Under the pieces are notes generated by a model. It was not told where the DNA came from. It ran no database searches and was given only the letters and a program-made list of their open reading frames with translations. The position numbers and the translations under genes are program-made. 64,000 nucleotides of DNA from Pseudooceanicola sp. (GTDB lineage: Bacteria > Pseudomonadota > Alphaproteobacteria > Rhodobacterales > Rhodobacteraceae), in the NCBI RefSeq assembly GCF_029213205.1, contig NZ_JARGNH010000018.1, positions 1-64,000 on the forward strand. Reading direction: 5' to 3'. Of this stretch, positions 8,476 to 28,699 are shown one piece after another. Numbering within the stretch: position 1 is the stretch's first letter; each line of letters begins with the position of its first letter.

Positions 8476-8501
8476 GACGCGCCCCGACCGGAAGCATTAC
8501 A
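8476..8501 (-). promoter_or_regulatory. ECF-type promoter TGTAATG-N15-CGTC for the 8.4-0 kb operon
   Basis: On the minus strand TGTAATG (8501-8495) is followed by 15 bases and CGTC (8479-8476), then TATAG. Transcription would begin near 8468, about 25 bases before the Cys-rich peptide ATG. The same pattern with identical spacing occurs at four other promoters in the window. Confidence 0.72.
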
Positions 8502-8627
8502 GAAATTGGCAACCTGTCGGTCTTCGTTAGTACAGGAGCAAGTGTATCGCTCTGCCGTAGGAAGGCGTCGATATTGCAGACAGAGTTACTGCATCCCGGC
8601 AGGCTGTCGGCTGACCGGTGCCATAGG

Positions 8628-9791
8628 TTACAGCAGCCGCCGCGCGGCCCATCCGATCACCTCGAAACCTCGCGCGCGCCAGCTGCGGGAATGCCAAGCC
8701 CGAAGAGTGACTTCGCGGGCATCCGAAAGATCTTGCAGATATTGGGCCTGCAACTGCCCTGCCAGCACGCGGTCATGTGCGACCAGAACCAGCTCCTGAT
8801 TGACGAACAGGCTTCGGTAGTCGAGGTTAGCTGACCCGATGATCGACCAGCCTGTATCGACGACCGACGTCTTGGCATGCAATGGACGGGGCAGATACTC
8901 GTAGACCCTCACGCCCGCCGAGAGAAGCTGCGCATATGCCGCCCGCGTCGCCCAGCCAGCGACCATAGGATCGCTCGTGCGAGGCACCAGCAGACGGACG
9001 TCCACGCCGCGACGCGCGGCATCCTGCAGCGCCCGGTCGACCACGGTGCCCGGACCGAAATAGGGCGACGTCAGATAAACGCAGGTCTGTGCCATCCCGA
9101 TCAGTCCCGCGTGCAGACAGGCAAGCCTCTTTTGACACTTGCGCGAATAGCTCGGCACCAGCAGTCCTTCGCTTGCGTCGGCCTCTTCGGGAATGGCGTT
9201 TGCCGGAAGCGGGCGGGCGTCCTGCCAGAGCCGGTCGAAGTGGCTTTCGGCAAGCGTCGCCAACGGCGCCGGGACACGCACATGTGTATCGCGCTGGCGA
9301 GTCTCGCCGTGAAGCCGACGCGAGTTCAACCGGCGGATGTTGAAACCGCCCAGGAACGCTTCCCGGCCATCCACAATGAGAAGCTTGCGGTGGTTGCGTT
9401 GGAAATATCGCAGCGGGTGTCGGAGATCAAAGGGACGAAACCAGCGAAACCGCACGCCGCTGCGTTCCAGTTCCCGCCGAAACTTGTCGAAATTCCGCTG
9501 GCCGGCACCGAAAGCGTCGAGATGCAACCGCACGTCAAGCCCGGTTCGCGCTTTGGCTGCGAGCAAGGCGACAAAACGCGCCCCGACTTCGTCGGCGGCA
9601 AAGATGTAGGATTCCATCCAGATCGTTTCGGTCGCGCCCTCTATCGCCGCGAGCATCGCATCGAAAAGAGCATCTCCCTCGACGAACAGCTGGAAAGCGC
9701 CCCGCCCTTCGCCCAGATTTGGCACACAGATCGCTTGCCGGGCCTGCCGTATGGTCACGGGAATTTGACGAGGTGCGTGCGAGTTGCTCAT
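8628..9791 (-). CDS. Phospholipase D-family cardiolipin synthase-like protein
   Basis: This 387-residue protein contains two HKD phosphodiesterase motifs: HRKLLIVDG followed by GGFN (about residues 134-148) and HAKTSVVD followed by GSANLD (about 304-322). Two HKD half-sites in one chain with this spacing are typical of ClsB-type cardiolipin synthases, which join two phosphatidyl groups at the inner membrane. There is no long N-terminal membrane anchor, again as in ClsB. It is the last gene of the operon that begins at 15.4 kb, which also codes for other lipid-related proteins. Another PLD-type phosphodiester reaction is possible. Confidence 0.82.
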   Translation of the reverse strand: MSNSHAPRQIPVTIRQARQAICVPNLGEGRGAFQLFVEGDALFDAMLAAIEGATETIWMESYIFAADEVGARFVALLAAKARTGLDVRLHLDAFGAGQRNFDKFRRELERSGVRFRWFRPFDLRHPLRYFQRNHRKLLIVDGREAFLGGFNIRRLNSRRLHGETRQRDTHVRVPAPLATLAESHFDRLWQDARPLPANAIPEEADASEGLLVPSYSRKCQKRLACLHAGLIGMAQTCVYLTSPYFGPGTVVDRALQDAARRGVDVRLLVPRTSDPMVAGWATRAAYAQLLSAGVRVYEYLPRPLHAKTSVVDTGWSIIGSANLDYRSLFVNQELVLVAHDRVLAGQLQAQYLQDLSDAREVTLRAWHSRSWRARGFEVIGWAARRLL

Positions 9792-9886
9792 AATCGCGGC
9801 TTACCGCCCCACCGGTCCAGTCGCAACATCGTCGGCACGACGTCGGCGCTATGCTTGGAACGCGAATTCGCAAGGAAGCACATCCG

Positions 9887-10878
9887 TCAGGTGTCCGCTA
9901 CTTCATGCGCGCCGTGCTGGCACCAGACACAATCGCAGTTGTTGTGGCTGCAACTGCGATCCTGCAAAGGGTTGCGATAGCGAAATCGGGCGAGCGGCAG
10001 CAGCAGGCGCTTAGGCAATGACAGCCGGTAGGCCTGGCCCAAGGAGTCGTCCGTGTCGTTTGATCCCAGCTTTCCGACCAGGTAGTCGATCCCGCGAGGC
10101 CCGCGTGTTCGCCGATCACCGGGTTTCTGCCCTGCATCGCGGTGCGCGGCAATCGGACATTCCCGAAACCCCCGAAGCCTCTCGGTCTTTGCATTTGCAG
10201 CCCGGCGTGACGTTCGAAATATGCCACCGTCGCGGCTAGATATTTTGCCTGATCGCGAAAGCCCGAGAACATGCAACTGGCCACCGTGCCGCGCCCCTGA
10301 CGCACGAGCAGATAGGCGTAGCCCTTCGGGGCAATCTCCGCCCCGAACGCCAGCCACGTGCCATCGGCCATGGTCGTGTCAAAGACGTAGCCCACGGCGA
10401 TGATATCGGCCCGCCGCGGCCCGCCTGCCAGGATCATATTGCCGGCGGTTCTCTTCACGCGATCATTGAATCGCACCTCTACCCCCGCCGTACGCGCCTG
10501 ATCCAGCAAGGCCCTGTCGAGCGTTCCCGCTGCATTGCCGCGTCGCAACAGGTAGAACAGGGGTTTCGATCCATGCACCCGGTGCGCTGTGGCGCGGCTG
10601 TCAAAGACGACGCCTTCCGTCACGCCAAGATGATCGAAATCCGCGGCGCCCCCTGCCTCCGCCAACTCGCCCAGAACGTTCCCGGCGGCGGTCCAGTTTT
10701 CAAGGCCTTGAAAGTCGTCGTGGAACCGATGGCCGACATCTTCGTGCCATTCTCGCACCACGACCCGACGATTGGCCTTGGCCAAAACGATTGCACAGAC
10801 CAGACCTGCGGGACCGGCCCCGACGATTTCAATCGTTTTGTCTTCAGGGTCGGCGGCACCTGGCGTTAGCGCCATCAT
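9887..10878 (-). pseudogene. FAD-dependent oxidoreductase, frameshifted near the C-terminus
   Basis: The N-terminus has a Rossmann FAD-binding motif (EIVGAGPAGL) and the body resembles FAD-dependent oxidoreductases of the geranylgeranyl-reductase type. After GEHAG (near 10098) the frame turns into an implausible Cys/Thr-rich sequence. The -1 frame continues sensibly to 9887 with LPKRLLLPLARFRY and a Cys-rich end (NNCDCVWCQHG). The stretch that normally follows GEHAG, an FQDxxxGFG-type segment, is missing, so an internal deletion with loss of frame is likely. The start at 10878 (ATG ATG) has a GAGGAGGG ribosome-binding site. Without the frameshift repaired the protein ends at 9898. Confidence 0.6.
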
Positions 10879-10938
10879 ACGAACCCTCCTCGATGCGATC
10901 GACGTCCTGACAGGCCGGGTTTATCTGCGCAATGTGAG

Positions 10939-11634
10939 TCAGATCCCGTAAGCCCAGGCCGGCAGTCGTCCCATATGGACCTCAACCATCCTGACACCGG
11001 GCACGTTTTCGACGGCAACCCGGATCGCATTCTCCTCGAAATCGCTGTCGGCGACACCCCAGACGGCGACATTCCCCTTGTCCACCGTGTAGTTGATGAG
11101 GTTGACCGCTGCACCGGGCACTTCTTTCAGAGCCTCTTCAATCTTCGCACGCAGCACGCGGTCGTCCTCCGACGGCTCCGGCAGCGCCCCATCCTGAAGC
11201 GCCGACAAGGCGTGGAGCAGGTTCGCACGGCTGACGATGCCGACCACTTTGTCGGATCTCACCACCGGCACGCGCTTGATCCGGTGCTTTTCCAGAAGAC
11301 GCGCGATTTCCGCGACATTCGTATCCTCTTCTACCGAAACCACATCCCTTGTCATCACGTCTTCGACCCGGTGGCTTTTGAGCTTCACGAAATCCTGTGC
11401 GGATTCGCTTGCCCCGCCAAGCACCTCGAGCCACCATGACCGGCGTGGTCCGTCTGTTTCGCGGACACGCCGCATGAGGTCGCCTTCGCTGACAAGTCCC
11501 TTGAGGTCGCCTTCGGCGTCAACGACGGGCAGCGCGCTGATATTGTGGTCGAGCATCAAGCGTACCGCGTCCTCGATTTGTCCCTCCAGCGGGACCGAGA
11601 TCACCGATGTTGTCATGATATCCCTGGCTTGCAT
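10939..11634 (-). CDS. CBS-domain pair protein with C-terminal BON domain
   Basis: This 231-residue cytoplasmic protein has two CBS motifs (residues about 1-60 and 88-145), each ending in the usual GLVSEGDL or GIVSRANL type segment. They are followed by a BON-like domain (about 155-225) ending in GRLPAWAYGI. CBS pairs usually bind adenosine nucleotides, and BON domains bind phospholipid surfaces. The combination suggests an energy- or stress-sensing factor acting near the membrane. It lies 39 bases downstream of the Rieske gene in the same direction. Confidence 0.85.
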   Translation of the reverse strand: MQARDIMTTSVISVPLEGQIEDAVRLMLDHNISALPVVDAEGDLKGLVSEGDLMRRVRETDGPRRSWWLEVLGGASESAQDFVKLKSHRVEDVMTRDVVSVEEDTNVAEIARLLEKHRIKRVPVVRSDKVVGIVSRANLLHALSALQDGALPEPSEDDRVLRAKIEEALKEVPGAAVNLINYTVDKGNVAVWGVADSDFEENAIRVAVENVPGVRMVEVHMGRLPAWAYGI

Positions 11635-11673
11635 GTCATAGTCTCCTTCTTGAATTTTGGCTGGTTCAGCACG

Positions 11674-12276
11674 TCAGGTGCCGATAACGAGTTGCAGGTC
11701 GTCGCCCAGATTATAGGGCGGGATGTCGAGGTTGCGTGGGGCCGGCCCCTTCCGGATCCGGCCCGAGGTATCGTAATGCGATCCGTGGCACGGGCAGAAC
11801 CAACCGCCGAATTCGCCCACCGCCGACCCATCCTGGCCCAAGGGGATACAGCCGAGATGGGTACAGACACCGATAACGACCAGCCATTCGCCATCCTCGC
11901 CCGCCACGCGGTTTTCATCCAGTGCTGGCTCTTCGCCACTTGCGTTCGGATTCTCGCCCGCTTCGTCAACCGGATCGGGAAGTTGGTCGAGATCGACGGC
12001 TCGTGCAGCCTCGATTGCGGCTGGTGACCTGCGCCAGACGAAGACCGGGCGCCCCTGCCACTTCACCGTAATGCGTTGGCCCGGTTCGACACCGGCAAGA
12101 TCGACCCTGACCGTGCCGGATGCGGTCACATCCGCAGAGGGGTTCATCGAATTGATCAACGGCCAGACCGCCGCGCCTGCGGCAATCGCGCCGGTTGAGG
12201 CCGTTGCATAATACAGGAAATCGCGGCGCTCTGTTGTGGGTAATTGATTGGTTTCGTCAATGGTCTGGCGCATCAT
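11674..12276 (-). CDS. Rieske [2Fe-2S] protein (ubiquinol-cytochrome c reductase type), without partner genes
   Basis: This 200-residue protein has the two cluster-binding boxes CTHLGC and CPCHGS and an N-terminal twin-arginine-like anchor ([14 protein letters not shown]). It is therefore expected to be membrane-anchored with the Fe-S domain in the periplasm. In the bc1 complex it passes electrons from ubiquinol to cytochrome c1, but no cytochrome b or c1 gene is nearby. It carries an acidic insertion (about residues 95-118). Its ATG overlaps the fabI stop by four bases. It may replace or modify the chromosomal Rieske subunit; that is inference. Confidence 0.85.
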
Positions 12277-13115
12277 GATTCCTCCGATTTGACGTTCATT
12301 TTGGCTGCGGCGACAGGGCTTTCGACGTGAACACCCGCATCGACATGCAGCACCTCGCCCGTGATGCCGCCGGTATAGTCGCTGGCGAACAGCAGGGCGG
12401 CGCGGCCCACCTCGTCGGCCGTGACGTTGCGCCGCAATGGGGCAACTCGCGCGGTCGCGTCCAGAAGACCCGCAAAGTCGGTCAACCCGGACGCCGCGCG
12501 GGTCATCACGGGTCCCGCCGAAATGGCGTTGACGCGGATGTTCGATGGCCCGAGTTCGTGGGCCAGATAGCGCACCGTGGCCTCAAGCGCCGCCTTCACC
12601 GGCCCCATCACGTTGTAATTCTCCACCACACGTTCGCCGCCGAGATAACTGAGCGTGATGAGGCTGCCGCTGCCTCTCATCAGGGGCTCAGCCAGATGCG
12701 CCATGCGGATCAGCGAATGGACGGACACATGCATCGCTTGGGAAAACCCTGCAGCCGAACAGTCAGTCAGGCGGCCATGAAGGTCGCCGGGCGGCACGCT
12801 GCCCACGGCATGAAGGATGAAATCCAATTTTCCCCAGCGGTCCGTGATGGCGTCGAAGACAGCGTCGAGTTCGTGCGGCGCATTCACGTCACAGGGCAGC
12901 AGGATCGGCGCTTCGAGACGTGCAGCTAATGGCACCACATGAGGTTTGGTGCGCTCATCGACATAGGTGATGGCGAGCTCGGCACCCGCTTGACGGAAAT
13001 GCAGGGCAGCAGGCCACGCCAGACTGCGATCATTGGCGATGCCGACAACCAGACCTTTCCGGCCGGACAGATCAAGCAGTTCCGCAGGATCGCAGCATTC
13101 GGCGAAGTCAGGCAT
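12273..13115 (-). CDS. fabI: Enoyl-[acyl-carrier-protein] reductase, FabI type
   Basis: The 280-residue product is an SDR-fold enoyl-ACP reductase: [17 protein letters not shown] at the N-terminus (the FabI nucleotide-binding variant), the catalytic Tyr-x6-Lys in [12 protein letters not shown], and the FabI-like [15 protein letters not shown]. FabI performs the last reduction in each fatty-acid elongation cycle with NADH. The start at 13115 overlaps the stop of the 59-residue peptide gene by eight bases; the longer upstream frame is inside other genes. Its place next to a DUF3141 gene is a combination seen in other alphaproteobacteria. It may act on a special acyl chain or as a stress-time extra copy. 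Confidence 0.88.
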
Positions 13116-13287
13116 CTTTGGACGTTGCCTCGGTATCGGCGGAAGCTTCGGTCTTCTTGTCGTGCGCACCATGACGCTTGGTCGACTTGCTATGTTCGTG
13201 TCCGCCATGTCCGTGCCCGAAAAGGTGCATTGCGGCCATTCCGCCGAAGACGAGAACCAAAACCCAGTTTTCAAAAAGCCATTCCAT
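13108..13287 (-). CDS. 59-residue single-span membrane peptide with His-rich tail
   Basis: The frame starts at ATG 13287 behind GGAG and ends by overlapping fabI. A hydrophobic span (residues about 4-23, WLFENWVLVLVFGGMAAM) is followed by a His-rich run, FGHGHGGHEH, and a charged tail. It resembles the DUF2933-type small proteins in layout. It lies six bases after the DUF3141 gene. A role in metal binding at the membrane is plausible but unproven. Confidence 0.75.
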   Translation of the reverse strand: MEWLFENWVLVLVFGGMAAMHLFGHGHGGHEHSKSTKRHGAHDKKTEASADTEATSKDA

Positions 13288-13293
13288 ATTCGT

Positions 13294-15063
13294 TCACTCC
13301 ATTTTTGATGAGTCGGACGGTTTTTCCGCCTGTGTGGTTGCTGCGGCGAACGGGAAATTGCCGAACATCGCGCCAAAGACATGGGTGATCCAGGCATCGC
13401 GTCCCTTGCGCCATGCGCCTATACCCTCGCCGGTGCGCGCCGACAGCGCACGCTCAGCGACGATCGCGGGGTGGTCGTCCGGCAATGGTGAGCGCGTCTC
13501 GCGCAGCGTTTCGGCGGTGGACTTGATCAGGGCCATCCACGGGTTCACCTGTTCGGAGAACATCGTTCTGGTCCAGCGCATGGGGTGCAGCGCACGGAGC
13601 GCCTCGGCGCTGGCCGGGGTCGTCGCGGCGCGGATCCAAGGACTGACGAAAGTCGAATAGACCGCCTCGTTGATCCGCGATATCTGCGCCACTTGTTTCA
13701 AGGCCGCATCGTCCGATGCAATGCCCAGATCATCGACCTCGCGCGGCTCGAATCGCACCTCAAAATCGCCGGTCTCGCAGTCCGGGTCACCCGACGGGTT
13801 GTCGATCACCATCTCGTAGAGACCCGGGGAAAGGGCCTCGACATCGTCCAGGCTTTCCAGAATCGCACGATGCTGGAGCCGCGCGACAGAGCCGGAGACG
13901 AAGATGCCCAGATGCCCGACACGCGGATGCGTCATATAGACGATGCGCTGCCCGGCTGCCTTGAGCGCATCGGTATCGGGATAAAGCTTGCCAATCCACC
14001 CCATTGCCTGTTCGGGCGGCGTGATGTTGTCACCGTCCGAGGCGAAGATGATCAGCGGATTGCTGATGCGCTTAAGATCGACGGTGCAATGCGCATCCAG
14101 CTGCATCTCGCCCTGTTCCAGCCGGTTGCCGATGAACAGGTTCTGCGTGATGCCGAGGATTTCCTCGCGGCTGAGCGTGTAGTATCCATTCCACCAGCGT
14201 TCGAACTCAAGGAACCGCTCGCGTTCGGTGTCGGCATGGGCAAAGAGGTTCGCGTATTTGTCCCAGATCGCCTTTTCGGGTTGCAAGGTCTCAAAATTCT
14301 GTGCCAGCCAGGCACCGTCGAACCGCCCGTCCCCCAGATCGGAGATCATATGGGCGGCCCATGCCCCGCCCGACAGTGCGCCCATCATCCGCATCGGGCT
14401 GCTTGCCGCCTCGCCCGACCAGTAGCTGAGCGGTGAGCCGTTCAGTACAATCGGACCGGTCAGACCGTCGCAATCCGCCGCCAGCAGCGTGGCCGCCCAA
14501 CCGGCCTGGCAATTGCCGTAGAGCACGGGGGCTGTGTCCGGGTGACGGCGAGCGACCTCGGAGACGAAGTCGCGCAAGGCATAATGCACATCCGACAGCG
14601 TCTGACCTGGCATGGGCTCGGGGTAGAAGATCACGAAATAGACCGGATGGCCCTCGTGCATCGCCATGCCGACCTCGCTGTCGCGCTTGAAGCCGCCGAT
14701 ACCGGGCCCGTGCCCGGCGCGCGGATCAATGACGATCACGGGCGGCTTGGCCTCGTCCACGCAATCGTCCCAGCAATCGTCGCCGACCCGCGTGATCCTG
14801 AGCAGCGCGTAGTTGGCCGACCGCTCAAAGGTGCGTGCGTCCAGCAGCAGTTCGTAATCGAAATCCAGAAGCGGCGGCATGCCCTGCCGCTCATGCGCGA
14901 TCATATTGTCGGCGCGTTCACGCAGCGTGTCGAGAAGCAGCACCCAGCGTTCAAAGACGTCTTGGACGTAAGGCACGTTACTAGCGGTCGTTGCGTTACC
15001 GGAAGCGGGTGCAAGAAATTGTTCCGGGGTCACTGTCGCAAGGCGCAGGCTCTTATTCATCAT
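13294..15063 (-). CDS. DUF3141 alpha/beta-hydrolase, PHA-synthase-like
   Basis: This 589-residue protein has a PHA-synthase-style lipase box, GNCQAGW (about residue 185), in which the nucleophile is Cys as in PhaC enzymes. A downstream Asp in FASDGDN and a His in PRVGHLG complete a possible catalytic triad. The family (DUF3141) has no established reaction. It is often found beside fabI and phosphotransacetylase/acetate kinase genes, which suggests acyl-chain or hydroxyacid metabolism. Start ATG ATG at 15063 overlaps the upstream gene by 11 bases. It is part of the operon driven from 15.43 kb. Confidence 0.82.
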   Translation of the reverse strand: MMNKSLRLATVTPEQFLAPASGNATTASNVPYVQDVFERWVLLLDTLRERADNMIAHERQGMPPLLDFDYELLLDARTFERSANYALLRITRVGDDCWDDCVDEAKPPVIVIDPRAGHGPGIGGFKRDSEVGMAMHEGHPVYFVIFYPEPMPGQTLSDVHYALRDFVSEVARRHPDTAPVLYGNCQAGWAATLLAADCDGLTGPIVLNGSPLSYWSGEAASSPMRMMGALSGGAWAAHMISDLGDGRFDGAWLAQNFETLQPEKAIWDKYANLFAHADTERERFLEFERWWNGYYTLSREEILGITQNLFIGNRLEQGEMQLDAHCTVDLKRISNPLIIFASDGDNITPPEQAMGWIGKLYPDTDALKAAGQRIVYMTHPRVGHLGIFVSGSVARLQHRAILESLDDVEALSPGLYEMVIDNPSGDPDCETGDFEVRFEPREVDDLGIASDDAALKQVAQISRINEAVYSTFVSPWIRAATTPASAEALRALHPMRWTRTMFSEQVNPWMALIKSTAETLRETRSPLPDDHPAIVAERALSARTGEGIGAWRKGRDAWITHVFGAMFGNFPFAAATTQAEKPSDSSKME

Positions 15064-15385
15064 CAGCTTCCTTTTGATTGGTGGTGTCTATGGAGGGTCG
15101 TCCAGCGAGCATCCCACGCACGAAATCCTTCGCCAAATCCTCGCGCAGACCGGAAAGGAGATAGGTCGCATCGCGAGACGCAATACCCAGCGCGCGTGCC
15201 GCAAGCGTCGGGGGTTGTTTCATCACTTCCACACGGTTGAACAACGCGCGTGCCATCGGGGCATCTGCGTATGCGGAGGTCTCAGCGCATGCGCAGGTCA
15301 TCCGGGAAAAAAAGACGCGAGGATCAGCATCGGATGATGGTTGACGGGGTACCCCCGCGTTCCGATCCGGCGTCTTCCGTGGCAT
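15053..15385 (-). CDS. Hypothetical 110-residue protein heading the DUF3141 operon
   Basis: The ATG at 15385 is preceded by GCAGGAG at good spacing and lies about 40 bases after an ECF-type promoter, so the full frame is likely used; a shorter form from 15256 is possible. The N-terminal third is polar with a CAC pair. The rest contains LAARALGIASRDATYLLSGL and ends in a charged tail. No membrane segment and no family were recognised. Its stop overlaps the DUF3141 start, which implies coupled translation. Confidence 0.6.
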   Translation of the reverse strand: MPRKTPDRNAGVPRQPSSDADPRVFFSRMTCACAETSAYADAPMARALFNRVEVMKQPPTLAARALGIASRDATYLLSGLREDLAKDFVRGMLAGRPSIDTTNQKEADDE

Positions 15386-15433
15386 GATTAGGCTACTCCT
15401 GCGGTTGAGCCTTTGGGCACAGTCACAGAAGAA

Positions 15434-15459
15434 GACGTTGGATCATGGAAATCGTTACA
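15434..15459 (-). promoter_or_regulatory. ECF-type promoter TGTAACG-N15-CGTC for the DUF3141-fabI operon
   Basis: On the minus strand TGTAACG (15459-15453), 15 bases, then CGTC (15437-15434). It sits between the stop of the ECF sigma gene and the first gene of the operon, giving a leader of about 40 bases with a clear ribosome-binding site. Confidence 0.75.
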
Positions 15460-15477
15460 GAGCTGACGGCGCGGCGA

Positions 15478-16104
15478 TCAGGATATTTGTCCGTCTTCTT
15501 CGCAGTCAGTCTGGTGTGTGTCATTCTCGCAGCCCTCGGGCGGACAATAACAATCGTCGCGGTCCTCTTGGCAGCACTTGCCGCAATGCGTCGTCAGCGC
15601 CTCGCGCAAAGCAGTGCGTGCCCGGTGTAGCCGGACACCAAGTGCGTTGCGGTTAAGCTGCAGATCGGCTGCCACGCTTTCGCGATCCTCTTCGCCGAAA
15701 TCGATGCGCCGGATCAGTTCGGCATCCGCCGGGCGCAGTTCGGAAATCAGCCCGCCATGGCAGGTGCACAGCCGTGCCATCTGTGAGGGCGCATCGGCAA
15801 TCCATTCCTCTGGTTCGCGCGCCGCCGCCGCCGCCAGCCGGCTACGCCGGGTCCCTTTGCGGTAGTGATCGTTCAAAGTGGACCGCAGGATTGTGTAGAG
15901 CCACGCATCCATTCGTTCGACCTCTCGGAGCTGATCCTTGCGTGACAGCACGCGGATGCAGAAGTCTTGCAGGACATCCTCTGCATCTGCGCGGTTGCCA
16001 AGCCGTTTGACCAGAAATCCCATAAACGCTCCGCGCCCGTCCAACAGGGCGCGTTCCGGCGAAGCGTCGGGCACATCGGGCTTGCCACTGTCTTGCGATG
16101 CCAT
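15478..16104 (-). CDS. ECF sigma factor with CxC linker and Cys-rich C-terminus (CorE-like)
   Basis: This 208-residue sigma factor has region 2 (GNRADAEDVLQDFCIRVL, then RMDAWLYTILRSTLNDHYRK) and region 4 (ADLQLNRNALGVRLHRARTALR). Two cysteine features stand out: LCTC in the linker between regions 2 and 4, and a C-terminal cluster HCGKCCQEDRDDCYCPP with further Cys. CorE-type (ECF44) sigma factors, which lack an anti-sigma factor and sense copper through such cysteines, have the same layout. No anti-sigma gene is adjacent. A weaker copy of the shared ECF promoter precedes it. Metal sensing is inferred from architecture. Confidence 0.85.
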   Translation of the reverse strand: MASQDSGKPDVPDASPERALLDGRGAFMGFLVKRLGNRADAEDVLQDFCIRVLSRKDQLREVERMDAWLYTILRSTLNDHYRKGTRRSRLAAAAAREPEEWIADAPSQMARLCTCHGGLISELRPADAELIRRIDFGEEDRESVAADLQLNRNALGVRLHRARTALREALTTHCGKCCQEDRDDCYCPPEGCENDTHQTDCEEDGQIS

Positions 16105-17215: not shown

Positions 17216-17425
17216 CGAGATTTCCTTTCCAAGTCAGAAGTGGCAGGAATTGGAGAAATTTTCCGATGTGCCAACTCAGGGGCGAAGTAAGAAGACGCTG
17301 CGGCAGCCGAAACCTTACGCATTCCTGAGCATACGCGTGTTGGACCTGGTTCCAAAGGACCGCGCCTGTGCATACCCAACAGCAAAACCACCAACAATCA
17401 GGTCACCCGAAGCACCCGGAAAAAG

Positions 17426-17451
17426 TGTAACGTTCTCGATGGTTCGGCGTC
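17426..17451 (+). promoter_or_regulatory. ECF-type promoter TGTAACG-N15-CGTC before the second sigma gene
   Basis: TGTAACG (17426-17432), 15 bases, CGTC (17448-17451) then ATA. The sigma gene ATG lies 20 bases beyond, so the leader is short and includes AGAGGTG. This supports autoregulation by one of the sigma factors. Confidence 0.75.
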
Positions 17452-18292: not shown

Positions 18293-18318
18293 TGTAATGA
18301 ACCGTGTTGTCTTTCGTC
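18293..18318 (+). promoter_or_regulatory. ECF-type promoter TGTAATG-N15-CGTC before the cyclopropane synthase
   Basis: TGTAATG (18293-18299), 15 bases, CGTC (18315-18318). Transcription would begin near 18325, about 58 bases before the synthase ATG. The spacing is identical to the four other exact copies. Confidence 0.75.
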
Positions 18319-19723: not shown

Positions 19724-20763
19724 CTGACATGAGACCTATCAGAGTTGCCGTAAACGGATACGGCGTGATCGGCAAACGTGTGGCAGACGCAGTGGTCGCA
19801 CAAGAGGACATGGACCTCGTTGGCGTGGCGGATGTCACCTCCGACTGGCGCGCCCGCATGGCGCGCGCGAAGGGTTTCGCGCTTTATGCCGCCGACCCGG
19901 ATCGCACCCCGGCCATGCGAGAGGCCGGCCTTGACGTGGCCGGAGGGCTCGACGACCTGCTTGCTACCGCAGACATCGTGGTGGACAGCACGCCCAAGAA
20001 AGTGGCTGTGCGCAATGTGGAAACCTATCGCGAAAGAGGCATCCGGTTCATCGTTCATGGCGGCGAAAAACACGAGGTGACCGGCCATTCCTTTGTTGCC
20101 GAAGCGAACTATGCAAGCGCGCTTGGCCGCGACAGCACCCGCGTGGTGTCCTGCAACACGACGTCGATCGTCCGCACCCTCACAGCGCTGAACGTTGCAG
20201 GGCTTCTTGGCTCAGCGCGCGGAACGCTCCTGCGGCGCGCCACCGACCCGTGGGAAAGCCATCTGGGTGGAATCATGAACACGGTTGTGCCCGAACCCGA
20301 TATTCCCAGCCATCAGGGCCCGGATGCACAAAGCGTCGATCCCGATCTCGACGTGATCACGATGGCCGTGAAGGTGCCGCAGACCCTTGCCCATCTGCAT
20401 TATTGGTCGGTCAGGATGCCGCGCAAGGCGTCCAAAGACGAGGTACTGGAAGCGTTCCGCGCCTCCTCCCGCATCGCGTTGATCCGGATGGCGGACGGGC
20501 TGGGCGCACTTAACGCGGTCAAGGAGATGATGGCCGATTTCGGGCGTCCCAACGACAGCCTCTATGAGGTGGCTCTGTGGGAGGACATGCTCAAGGTCGA
20601 GGGCGACGAATTGTTCTATGCCTACATGGTCGACAACCAGGCCATCGTGATCCCCGAAACCATCGACGCGATCCGTGCCCTGACGGAAGCCGAGCGAGAC
20701 GGATCGGCGTCGATTGCGCGTACGAACGCGGCGCTTGGGGTCGGGACATTTGCGGCGACCTGA
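19720..20763 (+). CDS. Type II (archaeal-type) glyceraldehyde-3-phosphate dehydrogenase
   Basis: The 347-residue protein starts with a Rossmann motif (VAVNGYGVIGKRVADAV) and has the catalytic Cys in VVSCNTTSIVRTL, the form found in archaeal GAPDH rather than bacterial GapA. It oxidises glyceraldehyde 3-phosphate with phosphate and NAD(P). Archaeal-type GAPDH is uncommon in bacteria. Here it is translationally coupled to a lipid-modifying enzyme and shares its ECF promoter. A stress-resistant bypass of the normal, thiol-sensitive enzyme is one possible role, though it too uses a catalytic Cys. Confidence 0.88.
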   Translation: MTDMRPIRVAVNGYGVIGKRVADAVVAQEDMDLVGVADVTSDWRARMARAKGFALYAADPDRTPAMREAGLDVAGGLDDLLATADIVVDSTPKKVAVRNVETYRERGIRFIVHGGEKHEVTGHSFVAEANYASALGRDSTRVVSCNTTSIVRTLTALNVAGLLGSARGTLLRRATDPWESHLGGIMNTVVPEPDIPSHQGPDAQSVDPDLDVITMAVKVPQTLAHLHYWSVRMPRKASKDEVLEAFRASSRIALIRMADGLGALNAVKEMMADFGRPNDSLYEVALWEDMLKVEGDELFYAYMVDNQAIVIPETIDAIRALTEAERDGSASIARTNAALGVGTFAAT

Positions 20764-20809: not shown

Positions 20810-21580
20810 TCAGCCCGCCGACATGCCCCCGTCGATGGGATACTGCGCTCCCGTGATGAAGGCGGACTCGTCGGAGGCGAGGAACAGGACCAGATTGGCG
20901 ATTTCTATGCTTTCACCATAGCGACCCAGCGGAATCGTGCCGGCAAGCTGTTGCTTCACTTCGTCGCCGTGGCCGGGATTGAACCCTTCCTCCAGCGACC
21001 GCATCATCCGCGTGTTGACCGGCGAGGGATGCACCGAGTTGACACGCACGTTGTGGCCTGCGACCTCTATCGCGGCGGCGCGCGTCAAACCGACAACGGC
21101 ATGTTTCGACGTGATATAGGGCGCGACGTTCGGGCTGCCCTTGAGGCCCGCGATCGACGACATGTTGATCACGCTACCCGATTGCTGCCCAGTCATCACG
21201 GGCAAGACATGCTGCAACCCAAGGAACGCGCCGCGCACATTGACCGCCATCACGCGGTCGAAATCCTCGATCTTCTGATCGACCAGCGGCGCGACCATGC
21301 CTTCGACTCCGGCGTTGTTGAAGAACACGTCGATGCGCCCAAACGTCTCGACGGTCTGCGCGACGTATCTTTTGCAATCTTCGACCGATGAGACGTCGCC
21401 GGCGATTGTCAGCAGGTCGTCCGGATTGCCCAGATCCCGCGCAGCATCCGACAGGTCGTCAACGTGGAGGTCCACAAGCGCGACCTTGGCCCCCTCACTC
21501 AAGAAAAGCTGGGCGGTTTCCAGACCGATGCCTGCCGCACCGCCGGTAATCAAAGCGACTTTATCTTCCAGACGTTTCAT
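20810..21580 (-). CDS. SDR-family oxidoreductase
   Basis: This 256-residue classical short-chain dehydrogenase has the cofactor motif TGGAAGIG (about residue 13), NNAG (about 89), a Ser in SSIAG and the catalytic YITSK (about 155). An acidic residue after the second strand (VDLHVDD) points to NAD rather than NADP. It is the last gene of the arginine deiminase operon, 18 bases after the carbamate kinase gene. The substrate is unknown. Confidence 0.82.
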   Translation of the reverse strand: MKRLEDKVALITGGAAGIGLETAQLFLSEGAKVALVDLHVDDLSDAARDLGNPDDLLTIAGDVSSVEDCKRYVAQTVETFGRIDVFFNNAGVEGMVAPLVDQKIEDFDRVMAVNVRGAFLGLQHVLPVMTGQQSGSVINMSSIAGLKGSPNVAPYITSKHAVVGLTRAAAIEVAGHNVRVNSVHPSPVNTRMMRSLEEGFNPGHGDEVKQQLAGTIPLGRYGESIEIANLVLFLASDESAFITGAQYPIDGGMSAG

Positions 21581-21598
21581 GGATCGTCCTCCTTGGTT

Positions 21599-22510
21599 TC
21601 ATGTGTTTGCGATCATCGTCCCTGCGCGATCTTCCAGCATGGCCAGCGCATCTTCCAGCCGACCCACGCAGGCGAAACGGTCGCGATCGGATACGAAAGT
21701 CGCGGCGGCGGCCACCTTCGGCGCCATCGAGCCGTCGGGCAAGTCCAGGCGGACCGCGTCCTCCGGTGACAAATGCCTTATAGCCGATTGCGCGTCGGTT
21801 CCGAAATCGCGGAACACGGCCTCGACGTCAGTCAGCAGCAACAGCGCGTCGGCGTTCAGCTTGTGTGCCAGAAGCGCCGTCGCGTGATCCTTGTCGATCA
21901 CCGCCTCGACCCCGATCAGCGAACCGTCGGCACGCCGGACGACCGGAATGCCGCCGCCGCCTGCGCAGATCAGCGTCACGTCTTGGTCGAGCAGCAGTTC
22001 CAGTACCTTCAGGTCGGGAATGCCACTCGGCATCGGCGACGGCACTACGCGGCGCCAATGCGCGCCATCCGCGGCAATGCTCCACCCCCGCGCCTGCGCG
22101 AGCCGTTCGGCTTCCGCCTTGTCATAGACCGGGCCGATGAACTTGGTGGGTTTGGCGAAGGCCGGGTCCTTGGGATCGACCTCGATCTGGGTCAGCAGGG
22201 TCGCGACCGGGCGGTCATGGCCCAGGGCGTTTTCAAGCGCCTGCTCGATCATGTAACCGATCATGCCATCGGTTTCCGCCCCCAGCACATCCAGCGGGAA
22301 CACTTCATCGGGTTTGTAGGCCGCACCCTGCAATGCAAGCAGGCCGATTTGCGGCCCGTTGCCATGGGTGACGACCAGCCGGTGCCCGGCCTCGATGATC
22401 TGCGCCAATGCTTTGGCCGCCGTGGCCACGTTCGCGCGCTGGTTCTGTGCCGTCAACGGCTCGCCCCGCTGCAACAGCGCATTTCCCCCAAGGGCCGCAA
22501 CAACCAGCAT
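21599..22510 (-). CDS. arcC: Carbamate kinase
   Basis: The 303-residue protein matches carbamate kinase in length and motifs: ALGGNALLQRGEPLTAQNQ at the start and the ATP-site segment VICAGGGGIPVV. It converts carbamoyl phosphate and ADP to carbamate and ATP, the energy-yielding last step of the arginine deiminase pathway. It follows the ornithine carbamoyltransferase gene after three bases, in the standard arcDABC-like order. Confidence 0.92.
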   Translation of the reverse strand: MLVVAALGGNALLQRGEPLTAQNQRANVATAAKALAQIIEAGHRLVVTHGNGPQIGLLALQGAAYKPDEVFPLDVLGAETDGMIGYMIEQALENALGHDRPVATLLTQIEVDPKDPAFAKPTKFIGPVYDKAEAERLAQARGWSIAADGAHWRRVVPSPMPSGIPDLKVLELLLDQDVTLICAGGGGIPVVRRADGSLIGVEAVIDKDHATALLAHKLNADALLLLTDVEAVFRDFGTDAQSAIRHLSPEDAVRLDLPDGSMAPKVAAAATFVSDRDRFACVGRLEDALAMLEDRAGTMIANT

Positions 22511-22513
22511 AGG

Positions 22514-23515
22514 CTAATTGCCCAGAGTGGCGACGAGCACCGCCTTAATCGTGTGCAGCCGGTTCTCGGCCTGATCGAACACGATGGAGGCCGGGCTTTC
22601 AAACACCTCTTCGGTGACTTCCATCGCCGTGATGCCGAATTTCTCTTCGATATCGGCGCCGACTTCGGTCTCGGCATTGTGGAAGGCGGGCAGGCAGTGC
22701 ATGAACTTGGCCCTCGGATTGCCGGTTTTGGCCATCACATCGGAATTCACCTGATAGGGCGTCAGCAGCTCGATCCGTTCCGCCCATTTTTCCTTGGGCT
22801 CACCCATCGACACCCAGACATCGGTATAGACGAAATCGACGTCTTTCATCGCGGCGTCCACATCCTCGGTGATCGTGATCCGCGCGCCGGTCTGCACGGC
22901 GACGTCATCGGCCTCATCGCGGATCGCCTGACCCGGCCACAGGCTTTCGGGCGCGCACAGGCGCACATCCATGCCCATTTTGGCCCCGCCGATCAGCAGG
23001 CTATCGCCCATGTTGTTGCCCGCATCGCCCATGAAGCAATAGGCGATCTCGCGCAGCGGCTTGTCGGAATGTTCCTGCATGGTCAGGAAATCGGCAAGGA
23101 TCTGCGTCGGGTGGAATTCGTCCGTCAGCCCGTTATAGACGGGCACGCCAGCGTATTGCGCCAGCGTCTCGACGATAGGGTGACCAAATCCGCGATATTC
23201 GATCGCGTCATAGACCCGGCCTAACACGCGCGCGGTGTCCTTGACGGTTTCCTTCTTGCCCAGATGCGACCCCGAGGGGCCAAGATAGGTCACATGCGCG
23301 CCCTGATCGTGGGCCGCCACCTCAAAGCCGACGCGGGTGCGGGTGCTGTCCTTTTCAAAGATCAGGGCGATTTCCTTGCCGGTCAGGCGCGGAACTTCGG
23401 TGCCGGCGTATTTCGCCGCCTTCAGGTCGGCGGAGAGTTTCAGCAAGAAGCTGATTTCCTGCGGCGTGAAGTCGCGCAGGGCCAGGAAATGGCGGTTTCT
23501 CAGATTGTAGGACAT
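22514..23515 (-). CDS. arcB: Ornithine carbamoyltransferase (catabolic)
   Basis: This 333-residue enzyme carries the carbamoyl-phosphate site STRTR (in [13 protein letters not shown], about residue 57) and the ornithine-site Cys in HCLPAFHN (about 274). In this operon it runs catabolically, splitting citrulline with phosphate to ornithine and carbamoyl phosphate. The start at 23515 gives the usual family length and typical N-terminus ([11 protein letters not shown]); upstream ATG options are poorly conserved in character. Confidence 0.93.
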
Positions 23516-23538
23516 GGGATTTCCTTGTCGTCGGTGGT

Positions 23539-24768
23539 TCAGATTGCGTCGCGGATCGTCGGGCAACTCATGCAGTGGCTACCCCCCCTGCCCCGGCCCA
23601 GTTCGGCACCGGGGATGGCCAGCACCTCGATCCCGGCCTCCTTCAGCGCGGCGTTGGTGTCGTCGTTGCGGTCATAGCCGATGACGACGCCGGGGCGCAG
23701 CGCCAGCACGTTGTTGCCATCATTCCACTGTTCGCGCGATTGCTCCGCGGCGTCGGCCCCGCCGGTGGGCACTAGATGCAGTTTCTTGTGGCCCAGAATT
23801 TCAGCGGTGATCTCGAATATGTGGCGCGCATCCCGGCGGATATCGAGCGCGGCCTTGCCCTGACCAGGGCGCAGGTCATAGCAGGTGATCGCATCCGCCA
23901 CCTCCTTGAAAGTGGTCACCACATCGCCCCCGCAATGGGTGAAAACGGTGTCCAGATGCATCGCCGCGCGCGAACTGGGCATCTGGCAGGCGATCACCCG
24001 CGTCACGTCGCCACCCTCGAACAGCGCCTCGGCCAGTTGGCCCACCGCCTGCGGGGTCGATCGTTCGCCCATGCCGACCATGACGACACCGTGCCCGATG
24101 GGCATGATGTCGCCGCCTTCCAGCGTGGCCGTCCCGAATTCCCGCGTCGGATCGCCGAACCAGACCCGCACTCGATCCGCGAATGTCGGATAAAACCGGT
24201 AGACTGCTGCCATCAGCAGCGTTTCGGGCCGCCGTGCCGCGAAATGCATCGGGTTCAGGCTCACGCCGCCATAAACCCAGGCTGAATTGTCCCGCGTGAA
24301 AATGAAATTTGGCAGCGGCGGCAGCACAAAACCGTGCGGGCCAAGGTAGCTGCCGAACATGCCGGAGGGCGTGAAGGGCAGATCGTCCACCCGGATGCCG
24401 CCGACCAGCAAACGGGCCAGTTCCGTGCCGGGCAGACCCTCCATCCAGGCACGCAAGTCGTCCCGCATCCCCACGCCGACGTCATTGCGGGTGATGCGGT
24501 GGTCGAGAACCCAGGCGCGCGCGTCGGAAATGTCCAGCGTCTCGCCCAGCAGCGCCATCGCATCCAACACCTCGACCCCTTCGCCGCGCATGATTTCGGC
24601 AAAGACGGCGTGATCCTTGATCGCCTGTTTGACCCAGAACACATCGTCGAACAGCAGGTCTTCGCGGTTGTCCGGTGTCAGACGGCGATGCGCCAGGCCG
24701 GGTGGCGATACGATCACCTGCCGCAATGTGCCGGCTTCGGAATGGACGCCCAATTTCGGTTCAGACAT
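23539..24768 (-). CDS. arcA: Arginine deiminase
   Basis: This 409-residue enzyme ends with the catalytic-Cys segment [10 protein letters not shown] and begins with the arginine deiminase signature [17 protein letters not shown]; it also has [10 protein letters not shown]. It hydrolyses arginine to citrulline and ammonia. The pathway yields ATP without respiration and raises pH. It lies between the transporter and carbamoyltransferase genes in the same direction. Confidence 0.94.
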
Positions 24769-24791
24769 CTGGAATGCCTCCTTCTTTCTAA

Positions 24792-26240
24792 TCAGAGAAT
24801 GGCGGCCAGGCTGATCCCGGCCGAGATGAAGACGACGAGGATCAGCAGCAGGGGCCAGACGAAGACGACCCAGCGGTCGAACGACACGTGTCCGATGGCC
24901 AGACCGCCGATCACAACCGCAGAGGTGGGCGTGATCAGATTCACGAGCCCGCTCGCCGATTGATAGGCCGTCACCACGAGGTCACGGCCGACCCCCGCGA
25001 AATCCCCCAACGGGGCAAGGATCGGCATCGACAGGACGGCCAGGCCGGACGACGACGGCACGAGAAAGCTCATCCCGATCTCGATCCAAAGCATCAGGTT
25101 GATGAACGCGACTTCCGGCAGGCCGCCGAGGGTATCGGCGGCACTGTTCAGGATCGTGTCTGCGATCAGACCCTGCTCCATGATGACGACGATGCCGCGC
25201 GCCAGACCGATCACCAACGCCACCCCCAACAGATCCTTGGCACCATCCACAAAGGACGACGTCAGCTTCTTTTCACCCATCCGCGCAACCAGTCCGACGA
25301 CAATGGCCATCCCAAAGAACAGCGCGCCCATCCGGGCCATCCACCATCCCTGGCTCGAGACACCCCAAATCATTACCGCAAAGGTCGCAAAAAACAGGAT
25401 CAGGACCAGCTTCTGAGTTCCGCTCAGCTTCGGCTCCTCAAACGTTGCATCCGTCTCGTTCAGAAAAAACTGCCGGTCGCTGTCGCGTTGCGCGGCGACG
25501 ACGGACCGAGCCGGGTCGGCTTTGACCTTTGATGCGTAGCGCATCACATAAGCCACGCAAATCGCGAGGCCGCCCAGCAGAAGGGCCAGCCGCAGCGCGA
25601 TACCATCCGTGAACGGGATGCCCGCCGCGTTCGACGCGATTACCGTGGCGAAGGGGTTGATTGTCGATCCCAGCGTGCCGATCCCGGCACCGATCAGGAT
25701 GATCGCCACGCCGGTCACGGAATCGTACCCCGCCGCGATCACCACCGGGATCAGAAGCGCGTAAAAGGCCAGCGTTTCCTCGGCCATGCCATAGGTCGTG
25801 CCGCCCAGGGCAAAGAGTGACATCAGGATCGGGATCATCCAGATCTCGCGCCCCTTCAGCCGCACCATCGCCGTCTGGATGCCGGTGTCGATGGCATTCG
25901 TGGCATTCACCACGCCCAGAAAGCCGCCCAAAAGCAGTACGAACAGCGCCACGTCGATGGCATTTGCGGCATAGCTGTCGGGATCATAAAACCCCGCCAC
26001 CGGTGCCAGCATGACGTCGATGACCCCCTGTGGATTGGGCTCGACCGTTTGATACGTACCCGGTACGGCGATCTCGCGCCCGACCTCTTCGTTCATGGCG
26101 CGGTCATATTGGCCCGCAGGGATAATCCAGGTCAGCGCCGCGACAACAATGATGAGCCCGAACAGGATGGAATAGGCGGTGGGAAACCGCGCCGCCATGC
26201 CCTGCCCGTCCGGTGTCTTGGTTGATGATGTGTCAGACAT
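24792..26240 (-). CDS. YfcC/ArcD2-like basic amino-acid antiporter
   Basis: The 482-residue protein has about 12 membrane helices with the YfcC-family pattern ([19 protein letters not shown] at the start, [21 protein letters not shown] near residue 410). Members next to arcA are thought to exchange arginine for ornithine. It begins 15 bases after the P-type ATPase gene and 23 bases before arcA, so all are probably co-transcribed. The arginine/ornithine role is inferred from context. Confidence 0.82.
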
Positions 26241-26255
26241 CTCAAGTCCCCTTCT

Positions 26256-28622
26256 TCAATGTGATTTCTGCGAGTGTCCAGCGTGAAGCGGCACCTGGCC
26301 TGCCTGCGCATCGCCCTGACCGCCGCCGCTGGCGGACCCACTCTTGCCCGCACCAATACCTTCCAGCCGCGTTCGTTTCAGCAGCAGCGCGTTGACCGCC
26401 ACCAGCGCGGAGCTGCCCGACATGGCAAGTGCTGCCACGGCGGGGCTGATGATCAACGGATAAAACACCCCTGCCGCCATCGGAAAGGCGACCACGTTGT
26501 AAGCCACGGCCCAGAACAGGTTCTGGTGCATCTTGCGCAAGGTGGCGCGCGACAGCTCGATGGCCCCCACGACATCGTAGGGATCGCTTTTCATCAGCAC
26601 GACATCGGCGCTTTCCATCGCCACGTCGGTGCCCGCACCGATGGCAAATCCGACATCGGCCTGGGTCAACGCGGGTGCGTCGTTGACACCGTCCCCGACC
26701 ATGCCGACCTTCTTACCCTGGGCCTGAAGCTCTTTGACCTTCTCGGCCTTTTGGCCCGGAAGAACATCTGCCAGCACAATGTCGATGCCCAGCTCGCCCG
26801 CGATCCGCCTTGCGGTACCTTCGTTGTCGCCGGTCAGCATCGCCACCTTGACGCCGCGTGCGCGCAGCTTGGCCACGGTGGCCTTGGCGCTCGGACGCGG
26901 TGCATCGGCAATAGCAATCAGGCCCAGCATCCGTCCGCCCTGCGCCACATGCACAACCGTGCGGCCCTCGCCCTTCAGGCGCTCGGCCTCCGCCGTCAGG
27001 GTGCCGACGTCGATACCCTCCTCGTCCATAAGGCGCCGATTGCCGACCAGCACGGTCTTGCCTGCGACTTCGGCGCGTGCGCCGCGGCCTTCGAGGTTGA
27101 GAAACTCGGCCATCTGCGGGACGTCGAGGTCCGCCGCGCGTTCGACAATGGCGAGCGCCAGCGGGTGGTCCGAGCCGCGATCGACGGCCGCCGCAGCCCG
27201 CAGCGCGTCGTCCTCCGCGCCGTTTTCGGCGGCAACGACCTCGACCACGCGCGGTTCGCCCATCGTCAACGTGCCGGTCTTGTCGAAGATGATCACGTCA
27301 AGCTTGGTCGCGTCTTCCAGCGCACCGGCATTCTTGAACAGGATACCGTGCTGCGCCCCTAACCCTGTGCCCACCATCACCGCCATCGGCGTAGCAAGCC
27401 CAAGCGCGTCCGGGCAGGCGATGACGAAGACGGTGATAGTCAGCGTCAGCGCGAACAAAAGCGGAGAGCCGATCCACCAGAACCAGACCGCGAAGGTTGC
27501 AAGTCCGATCACGACGGCGATCAGCACCAGCCATTGTGAGGCTTTGTCGGCCAGAAGCTGGGCGGGTGCCTTGGAGTTCTGCGCCTCCTGCACCAGCTTG
27601 ACGATCTGCGCCAGCGCGGTGTCGGCCCCGACCTTGGTGGCGCGGTACCGGAAACTGCCGCTCTTGTTGATGGTGGCGCCGATCACGGTGTCGCCGACGG
27701 CCTTGTTGACCGGCATGGACTCGCCTGTCAGCATGGATTCGTCGACCAGCGACGCGCCTTCGACAACCTCGCCATCTACCGGGATCTTGTTGCCGGGCCG
27801 GATCAGCACGATCTCGCCCTCAAGGACTTCGGAGGTAGGCACCTCGACGTCTTGCCCATCGCGGATAACGGTCGCCATCGGCGGTGCAAGATCGAGCAGT
27901 GCGCGGATTGCAGCAGACGCCCCGGCCCGCGCGCGCATCTCCAGCCAGTGACCCAACAGGATGAACACCAGCAGCACCGCCACCGCCTCGTAGAATTGCA
28001 CGCCCGGAAAGAAGAAGGTAGACCCGACGCTGAACACATAACCGGTGCCAACCGACAGCACGACCAGCACCGCCATGTTCAAGATGCCGTTGCGCAAGGC
28101 GCGCCAGGCGGCGACGAAGAACGGCCAGCTCGGCCAAATTATCGCGGCACTACCCAAGAAGAACAGCCACAGATCCAGTTCCAGACCGAAGGGCGGCGCG
28201 GGTGGCGTGAACAGGCCACCCATTGGCGAATAAGTGAAGATCGGGATGGTGAACAGCAGCGCCACCCAGAAGCGATTGCGCATGTCGCGGACCATGCTGG
28301 CCATGTCCATGCCACCGCCGTGGCCCATCTCGTGCGCCATCGCGTCGTGGCCAGCCGGGGCCTCCGCGCCAGACATTTGATGGTCGGCGTGGCAGACATG
28401 GTTCGGAACCCGCTCCCCGGCGCAGTGGAATCCGCAGGCCTCAACGGTGTTGCGCAGCTCTTCCTCGCCCACTGCCGTCTCATCGTAGTGGACTGTCACG
28501 CTTGCCGATGCCGGGTTCGCTTCGGCGCTGTGCACGCCGCCGAGAGCTGACAAATGGCGTTCGACCGCGAGATGATCGAGTTCATCGAACAGCCCGCGGA
28601 CCTCAAGGGTCAATGACTTCAT
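26256..28622 (-). CDS. Heavy-metal P1B-type ATPase with CPD transmembrane motif
   Basis: This 788-residue pump has an HMA-like N-terminal domain without the CxxC pair, then a His/Met-rich stretch ([26 protein letters not shown]). The transmembrane motif is CPD (about residue 402), in place of the CPC or CPH found in Cu(I) and CopB-type pumps. DKTGTLT, HP and GDGVNDAP are intact, and the last helices carry YN and MSGSS. The start at 28622 follows GGACAGGAG and a leader from the ECF promoter; the longer frame would start inside that promoter. The metal is probably copper but the CPD motif leaves this open. It heads the arginine deiminase operon. Confidence 0.88.
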
Positions 28623-28673
28623 GTTGGCTCCTGTCCACTTTCCTTGCGATCGAGAACGACCGTTTGGTGAATA

Positions 28674-28699
28674 GACGTTGCCGGTCTCCAAACCTTACA
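28674..28699 (-). promoter_or_regulatory. ECF-type promoter TGTAAGG-N15-CGTC before the ATPase-arc operon
   Basis: On the minus strand TGTAAGG (28699-28693), 15 bases, CGTC (28677-28674), then TATT. It would place an operon of six genes, the CPD ATPase, transporter, arcA, arcB, arcC and SDR, under the shared sigma factor. Confidence 0.72.

Follow-up and report, generated by a model that had tools for sequence, protein, structure and literature searches.

A recurrent promoter-like element, TGTAANG-N15-CGTC, was found in a 64,000-nucleotide stretch of DNA from Pseudooceanicola sp. (NCBI RefSeq assembly GCF_029213205.1, contig NZ_JARGNH010000018.1, positions 1 to 64,000 of the forward strand; hereafter the window). 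The motif is conserved upstream of orthologous genes and follows a particular family of extracytoplasmic function (ECF) sigma factors, the CorE-like group, across genomes. We regard it, with a probability of about 0.88, as the promoter of CorE-like sigma factors, two of which (sigma1 and sigma3) would be switched by metal and would transcribe five operons, including the one that encodes a further family member, sigma2.

Motif copies in the window and in the genome

An earlier sequence-only reading of the window had listed five exact copies with identical 15-base spacing and proposed that they form the ECF promoter of a stress regulon. An exact pattern search recovered all five with the same coordinates and strands (Table 1), and 100 dinucleotide shuffles of the window gave a mean of 0.07 copies (maximum 1); that reading had put the chance expectation at about 0.1. 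Each copy precedes the operon assigned to it (Cys-rich peptide/copA, DUF3141-fabI-Rieske, a sigma gene, cfa-GAPDH, and ATPase-arginine deiminase), with start codons 20, 32, 48, 51, and 64 nt downstream of the motif ends. Together the five would head about 23 genes, the operon limits being drawn from close spacing and shared strand. The two boxes, placed like −35 and −10 elements at a fixed spacing and in the correct direction before genes, have the layout of an ECF-type promoter. Allowing one mismatch yielded a single further window site, 5′ of an EamA gene, where 2.48 such sites were expected. Scanning the window for Rfam families and tRNA genes gave no hits.

Of the eight exact copies in the complete assembly (3.69 Mb, 60 contigs), the window holds five. 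The other three (C11, C34, and C56) were rejected as real sites and counted as chance because they lie within open frames of 246–576 codons and because the reversed control pattern matched nearly as often (seven matches versus eight).

Conservation upstream of orthologous genes

Twelve plasmid records match the region, and seven were taken, from Roseovarius, Sulfitobacter, Roseobacter, and Paracoccus; among those left out, H2 (Roseovarius mucosus) spans the region like H1, and four match over the DUF3141 gene alone. The seven records hold 30 motif copies, as opposed to four of the reversed control. Upstream regions were picked by gene orthology, regardless of the motif, with identical ones removed and near-identical ones kept. 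The exact motif is present in 59 of 66 such regions from the five headed gene families (Table 1), and five of the seven misses carry one mismatch. The check suggested by the sequence-only reading, conservation upstream of orthologues on related plasmids, thus came out in favor of the motif.

Control upstream regions gave a different picture, with the exact motif in 0/28 for sigma1, 0/27 for sigma3 (mostly the same sigma genes), 0/21 for DUF3141, 0/10 for CBS, 0/11 for SDR, 0/4 each for PLD and lgt, 0/30 for a copA-like row that includes unrelated ATPases, 1/16 for EamA, and 1/11 for DUF5676. Exact copies of their own were thus rejected for copA, DUF3141, CBS, PLD, lgt, and SDR, as was autoregulation of sigma1 and sigma3 through the motif, for which the two upstream sets overlap. 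The sigma1 counts also dispose of a sixth, weaker copy that had been placed at 16172–16197: the site reads TAGAATG-N15-CGTT, with three mismatches, the same letters recur only in the near-identical loci L017 and L097, and the best matches among sigma1 upstream regions have three to five mismatches. The EamA site is partly kept, given that one exact and eight one-mismatch sites occur among 16 eamA orthologues.

Of 38 non-redundant sites, 36 have C or T at position 6 and 33 have a T after CGTC; neither of these positions was fixed in the search pattern. These preferences define a fuller form, TGTAAYG-N15-CGTCTW, hereafter the stringent form. In 24 orthologue pairs the spacers agree at 199 of 360 bases, and the spacers of the window's five copies also differ from one another; the corresponding box identity (240/240) follows from how the pairs were selected and is not evidence.

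These data bear on two other explanations. Plasmid modules are common by descent and identical sites may be inherited, so the copies might be a dispersed repeat, or the product of chance and shared ancestry, without function; we hold this to be extremely improbable because the spacers have diverged while the motif has been kept in 59 of 66 upstream regions. Alternatively, TGTAANG and CGTC might be the operator halves of a repressor or activator, which a position 20–64 nt before start codons would suit as well as it suits a promoter. The motif is non-palindromic, however, facing the gene in the 59 upstream regions and pointing away from it in one of the 66, and its rigid 15-base spacing likewise counts against an operator. 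In addition, nothing promoter-like was detected by a sigma70-type scan of positions 1–20000 at any of the four copies located there. This explanation too seems highly improbable, and an ECF promoter remains the preferred reading.

CorE-like sigma factors of the window

Judged by their sequences, the window's three ECF sigma factors belong to the CorE-like group (formerly ECF44, today part of ECF238). Pfam Sigma70_r2 was found in all three and Sigma70_r4_2 was reached in sigma2 alone, while the general ECF model TIGR02937 scored above its cut-off in each; SigZ-type ECF models align over most of sigma1–3, below their own cut-offs. Sigma1 and sigma3 share 74% identity, and sigma2 is 38% identical to both. 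A CXC linker and a Cys-rich tail are given as the two marks of CorE-like sigmas in the portions available of PMC8999054 and PMC3107203, the latter describing four invariant tail cysteines spaced C-x2-C-x7-C-x-C. Both the linker and this tail spacing were present in 15 of 15 aligned sigmas, namely the three of the window and 12 of 13 from the seven plasmid records.

The sequence-only reading had placed a motif copy before a sigma gene, which proved correct for sigma2 only of the three window sigmas; these can now also be named as CorE-like. Membership of such sigmas in the family was already known: among the 21 CorE-like sigmas listed in 2011 are genes from Roseovarius TM1035 (two), Roseovarius 217 (three), and Roseobacter litoralis (one) (PMC3107203). 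From gene numbers and neighborhood, these are likely orthologues of sigma1–3. The accessible part of the same source gives neither promoter nor regulon for them, and it is a promoter and a regulon that are added here.

Seven of 15 sigma1 upstream regions (two of the 15 being the window's own) contain, about 100 nt ahead of the start, the sequence TTGAY-N4-RTCAA, which we take to be an FNR/FixK-type box; 0.0075 were expected from base shuffles. It takes the form TTGAT-N4-GTCAA in L013, L020, L021, L022, L099, L101, and L102 and is absent from the window. The box suggests that low oxygen may set the amount of sigma1 in some relatives. A minus-strand fragment in L012 (reverse-strand 208–442) contains the sigma4 domain and tail of a sigma3 (E 2e-33) without the sigma2 domain and without the motif, and is perhaps a decayed sigma3.

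Co-occurrence of motif and sigma factors across genomes

The motif follows CorE-like sigmas well beyond the plasmids described above. In 45 loci around sigma homologues, with overlapping loci kept, a spacing of 15 gave 77 matches versus four for seven other spacings combined, and no motif was found in the four of these loci whose weak sigma match has no Cys marks. In a set of 80 loci, 16 of the 17 that show both the linker and the tail cysteines carry the motif (34 matches), compared to 4 of the 63 that do not; the copies in L042 and L050, which have no such sigma, look like chance and were set aside. Of 394 genomes drawn from the family, 20 gave a sigma match, which was strong (E below 1e-50) in 16. 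At least two copies of the stringent form occur in 15 of these 16 genomes versus 0 of the 378 others (Fisher 3e-26), of which 16 have one copy.

Among 385 genomes drawn from the class, those outside the family included four with a strong sigma match and three with a weak one. All four of the former carry the stringent form (nine copies, seven of them at most 5 kb from a sigma), as opposed to none of the latter, and in eight stretches around out-of-family matches a spacing of 15 gave 17 matches while other spacings gave one. The three Planctomycetota loci with the Cys marks (L029, L031, and L032), whose sigmas are 36–38% identical, contain one copy each where 0.005–0.016 were expected. These copies lie 20–63 nt before a heavy-metal P-type ATPase gene, of the YHS/HMBD type in L029 and L032 and of the HMA type in L031.

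This distribution also speaks to the proposal that the motif is the promoter of another chromosomal ECF sigma, for example the general stress sigma EcfG, with which CorE-like genes merely co-travel. The genome does encode other members of the sigma70 family (10 Sigma70_r2 matches, three of them in the window), and AAC and CGT elements recur in many ECF promoters. The EcfG consensus, GGAAC...CGTT, differs from the motif, however, and the number of motif copies tracks the CorE-like sigma by genome and into the Planctomycetota, which are not known to encode EcfG. We therefore judge a promoter of this kind very unlikely and retain CorE-like sigmas as the factors that would read the motif.

Both branches of these sigmas seem to read the same motif, as suggested by plasmid records with a single sigma that retain it (W05 and W06 with sigma1, W07 with a sigma3-like gene), by G093, which has a sigma1-type match only and carries the motif before cfa, the mini gene (see below), and an HMA ATPase gene, and by G485, with a single sigma2-like match and one motif copy. 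The proposal that one stress regulon is carried on the plasmid needs one amendment: conservation and sigma co-occurrence support a regulon, but the module is not borne by plasmids only, as it lies on contigs of 3.0–3.3 Mb in G049, G093, and G373.

Proposed regulatory scheme

Spacing, orientation, start-codon distance, conservation among orthologues, and co-occurrence with ECF sigmas all support the ECF promoter of a stress regulon that had been predicted. In the scheme that we propose, TGTAANG-N15-CGTC, mostly as the stringent form, would provide the −35 and −10 elements for RNA polymerase with a CorE-like sigma, with transcription predicted to start just downstream. Sigma1 and its paralogue sigma3 would be expressed independently of the motif, from other promoters. 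If they work like CorE, binding of metal to the tail and linker cysteines would switch them on. The active factors would then transcribe the operon of the Cys-rich peptide and copper-type ATPase, the sigma4-only mini gene with the DUF3141/fabI/Rieske operon, cfa-GAPDH, the HMA ATPase with the arginine deiminase pathway, and sigma2. As sigma2 alone among the window sigmas sits behind the motif, we infer that sigma1 acts on sigma2 in a cascade, in which sigma2, itself a member of the family, would probably amplify the response.

Several points weigh against this scheme, whose promoter assignment was drawn from sequence. These sigmas have no cysteine at the spacing of Cys189, the residue chiefly responsible for activation of CorE by copper: in an ungapped spacing comparison, their tail cysteines fall at positions 1, 4, (5), 12, and 14 and not at 9. 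Copper is thus a plausible candidate for the metal. Locus L027 (20 kb) has the Cys marks and no motif copy, as does L125 (3.6 kb), and G121 has a sigma and no stringent copy, its motif continuing with CT. In L033 and L034 (Caulobacteraceae, 37%), on the other hand, a copy lies next to a sigma match that fails the cysteine pattern, the small protein behind the L034 copy matching no Pfam family. Two of the nine out-of-family copies lie 27 kb and 1 Mb from a sigma, and for some copies close to sigmas no convincing downstream gene is apparent (L162, and L166 at 13964). Genomes of the family draw were among the loci used to refine the stringent form, which fits just two of the five window copies; each of the other three departs from it at one or two of the newly specified positions. 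The sigma counts of the named plasmids refer to the plasmid records. Finally, shared plasmid modules are non-independent observations, the Planctomycetota and out-of-family cases being more independent ones.

A sigma4-only companion protein

The first gene behind copy 2 encodes a protein of about 110 residues, here termed the mini, in which a CXC is followed by a sigma4-like helix-turn-helix; the sigma2 domain, responsible for core binding and −10 melting, was not found in it. Homology to sigma4 emerged from a comparison of wide profiles. A profile of 29 minis aligned with one of 53 linker-sigma4-tail sequences with a probability of 94.6% (hhalign; E 7e-8, 64 columns), versus 0.1–0.3% for the sigma2 part (0.3%) and reversed controls. 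Narrower or single-sequence comparisons were weak (22–48% for narrower profiles), leaving the wide profiles alone as decisive. Pfam Sigma70_r4_2 was reached by 1 of 12 minis, at E 0.17. An AlphaFold2 model is confident in three helices only, and its top Foldseek matches are mostly sigma4-bearing chains, none of them significant (best E 0.45). The sigma segment VRLHRAR is replaced in the minis by, for example, YLLSGLR, with loss of the basic DNA-contact residues.

Of 40 distinct sigmas without a tail of the type seen in the factor sigma2, a set that includes distant ones, e.g., from Planctomycetota, 29 are followed immediately by a mini gene, as opposed to 0 of 18 sigmas with such a tail. In 24 of the 29 cases, the motif occurs just after the sigma gene. 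CorE-like sigmas have been described as having no linked anti-sigma factor, and no classical anti-sigma gene was seen among the annotated neighbors of sigma1–3; the linked mini could act as one. Because it would be made from the promoter of the sigma that it resembles, feedback seems the most likely of the possible roles of the mini, while a role as positive partner or metal carrier may also be considered. More generally, it is conceivable, at somewhat less than even odds, that CorE-like sigmas have a dedicated partner, a sigma remnant (the CXC linker and a sigma4 domain unable to read DNA any longer) expressed from the sigma's own target promoter that takes metal from the active sigma or blocks it and so ends the response.

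Two further cases were encountered in other loci. On the minus strand of L142, behind a motif copy at 3981, lies a gene for a related protein with sigma4 and the full Cys tail and without sigma2. L165, from another alphaproteobacterial family, contains a minus-strand sigma4-only frame (reverse-strand 12497–12980) that matches the sigma4 profile at E 2e-6.

Relation to known systems

The closest described system is CorE of Myxococcus xanthus, an ECF sigma with a C-terminal Cys-rich domain (C-x2-C-x7-C-x-C) that regulates P-type ATPase and multicopper oxidase genes, as reported in the available part of PMC3107203. Its promoter, derived from four genes, has AAC in the −35 element and a conserved G 16–18 nt further, the distance here being 17 (PMC3107203). 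Unlike CorE, the sigmas described here share one motif among several, lack a cysteine at the Cys189 place, have a sigma4-only companion gene linked to them, and would control metabolic operons. CorE2 of M. xanthus, which depends on Cd/Zn, likewise combines a CXC linker and a Cys-rich tail, a likeness drawn from its description in excerpts of PMC8999054. A sigma part, or a part resembling one, on a separate protein is also known from the split sigma SigO-RsoA of Bacillus subtilis and from the sigma-like domain of PhyR (accessible part of PMC8103513), whereas the mini adjoins a complete sigma and is without the basic residues of the recognition helix. In that same portion, the 2021 review names CorE and CorE2 of one species as the sole experimentally studied CorE-like sigmas (PMC8103513). 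According to the text available, "CorE homologs" were counted in a marine survey by means of the general ECF model TIGR02937, so its counts do not speak for the CorE-like group (PMC10141476).

Apart from this family, the motif has the general look of Bacillus ECF promoters of the SigX/SigW/SigM type (TGWAAC ... CGWC). It differs in that mostly YG follows TGTAA and the N15 spacer is fixed, and those sigmas form an unrelated group.

In the searchable literature, outside which most subscription papers fall, no promoter or partner for the CorE-like group was found beyond that of CorE. The sigma family and the idea of a regulon are known; what appears new to that literature is the cross-phylum motif, the set of genes in the regulon, and the sigma4-only companion. 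With a motif that extends from Rhodobacterales to Planctomycetota, CorE-like regulons would become readable from sequence, pointing to Cys-rich peptides, heavy-metal ATPases, DUF5676 proteins, and cyclopropane synthase as recurrent targets, together with a likely copper nitrite reductase in three genomes. The candidate sigma4-only partner is directly testable.

Features of the window and further targets

Table 1. Putative promoter copies, sigma genes, and associated genes, with motif counts in orthologous upstream regions
Feature	Position	Strand	Remarks
Putative promoter copy 1	8476..8501	−	Before Cys-rich peptide/DUF5676/MBL/phosphorylase/phosphoribosyl pyrophosphate (PRPP) synthetase/copA-like operon; exact motif in 11/11
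Putative promoter copy 2	15434..15459	−	Before sigma4-only mini/DUF3141/fabI/Rieske/CBS/FAD/PLD genes; 21/23
Putative promoter copy 3	17426..17451	+	Before sigma2; 11/14
Putative promoter copy 4	18293..18318	+	Before cyclopropane fatty acid synthase-like and type II GAPDH genes; 12/14
Putative promoter copy 5	28674..28699	−	Before HMA P-type ATPase/YfcC-type carrier/arginine deiminase pathway/SDR operon; 4/4
Possible weak sixth copy, CGTAAGG-N15-CGTC	17294..17319	−	Before EamA transporter gene; eamA orthologues 9/16 exact or one mismatch
Sigma1, CorE-like ECF sigma	15478..16104	−	Pfam Sigma70_r2; linker CTC; tail CGKCCQEDRDDCYC; upstream motif 0/28
Sigma2, CorE-like ECF sigma	17472..18140	+	Pfam Sigma70_r2 and r4_2 on enclosing frame; linker CNC; tail CLTCPVHGFLDCDC
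Sigma3, CorE-like ECF sigma	29712..30302	−	Linker CTC; tail CGACCLEDPDDCYC; 74% identity to sigma1 over 174 residues
Sigma4-only companion (mini)	15053..15385	−	CXC linker and sigma4-like fold; without sigma2 domain and Cys tail
55-residue Cys-rich peptide (GGCCGG ... SGCCCGQN)	8276..8443	−	First gene behind copy 1
Remainder of operon 1	1618..8162	−	DUF5676, beta-CASP MBL, thymidine/AMP phosphorylase-like, PRPP synthetase-like, HMBD P-type ATPase with CPC
Remainder of operon 2	8628..15063	−	DUF3141, short open reading frame (annotated in relative L009), FabI, Rieske, CBS-BON, FAD, PLD-like
cfa-like and type II GAPDH genes, overlapping	18383..20763	+	GAPDH type from a relative's annotation
Operon 5	20810..28622	−	HMA P-type ATPase with CPD, DcuC/YfcC carrier, arginine deiminase, OTC, carbamate kinase, SDR
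Second metal set	36879-39398, 40362-41231, 47879-49348		P-type ATPase with two HMA domains / DUF305 / multicopper oxidase
Likely copper nitrite reductase gene	L106, L107, L126 2780-3946		Behind motif, beside sigma and mini gene

In the window, neither sigma1 nor the sigma3-lgt-VTT genes lie behind a motif copy. The HMA P-type ATPase encoded at 26256–28622 has CPD rather than CPC as its membrane metal site. The MBL/beta-CASP, AMP/thymidine phosphorylase-like, and PRPP synthetase-like genes stand in a row at 3969–7863, which suggests breakdown of RNA to PRPP as part of the response. The right half of the window contains a second metal set, comprising the P-type ATPase with two HMA domains, the DUF305 protein, and the multicopper oxidase; the exact pattern search found no motif copy at this set, which is therefore probably under other control.

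Further genes behind the motif were found in relatives. A cupredoxin-type gene follows it in G072, G223, and G347; the G347 product has Pfam Cu-oxidase domains, the G072 and G223 products are alike in sequence, and the protein is likely a copper nitrite reductase. The motif also precedes a cfa-like gene in G535, phasin genes in G485 and G627, and, again in G627, a gene that resembles cfa by eye. In several genomes, genes for Cys-rich peptides are again found behind the motif. On the minus strand of L127, a copy at 1463–1488 stands before a gene whose product is patatin-like by eye, back to back with a copy for an HMA ATPase, and this gene is a possible further target.

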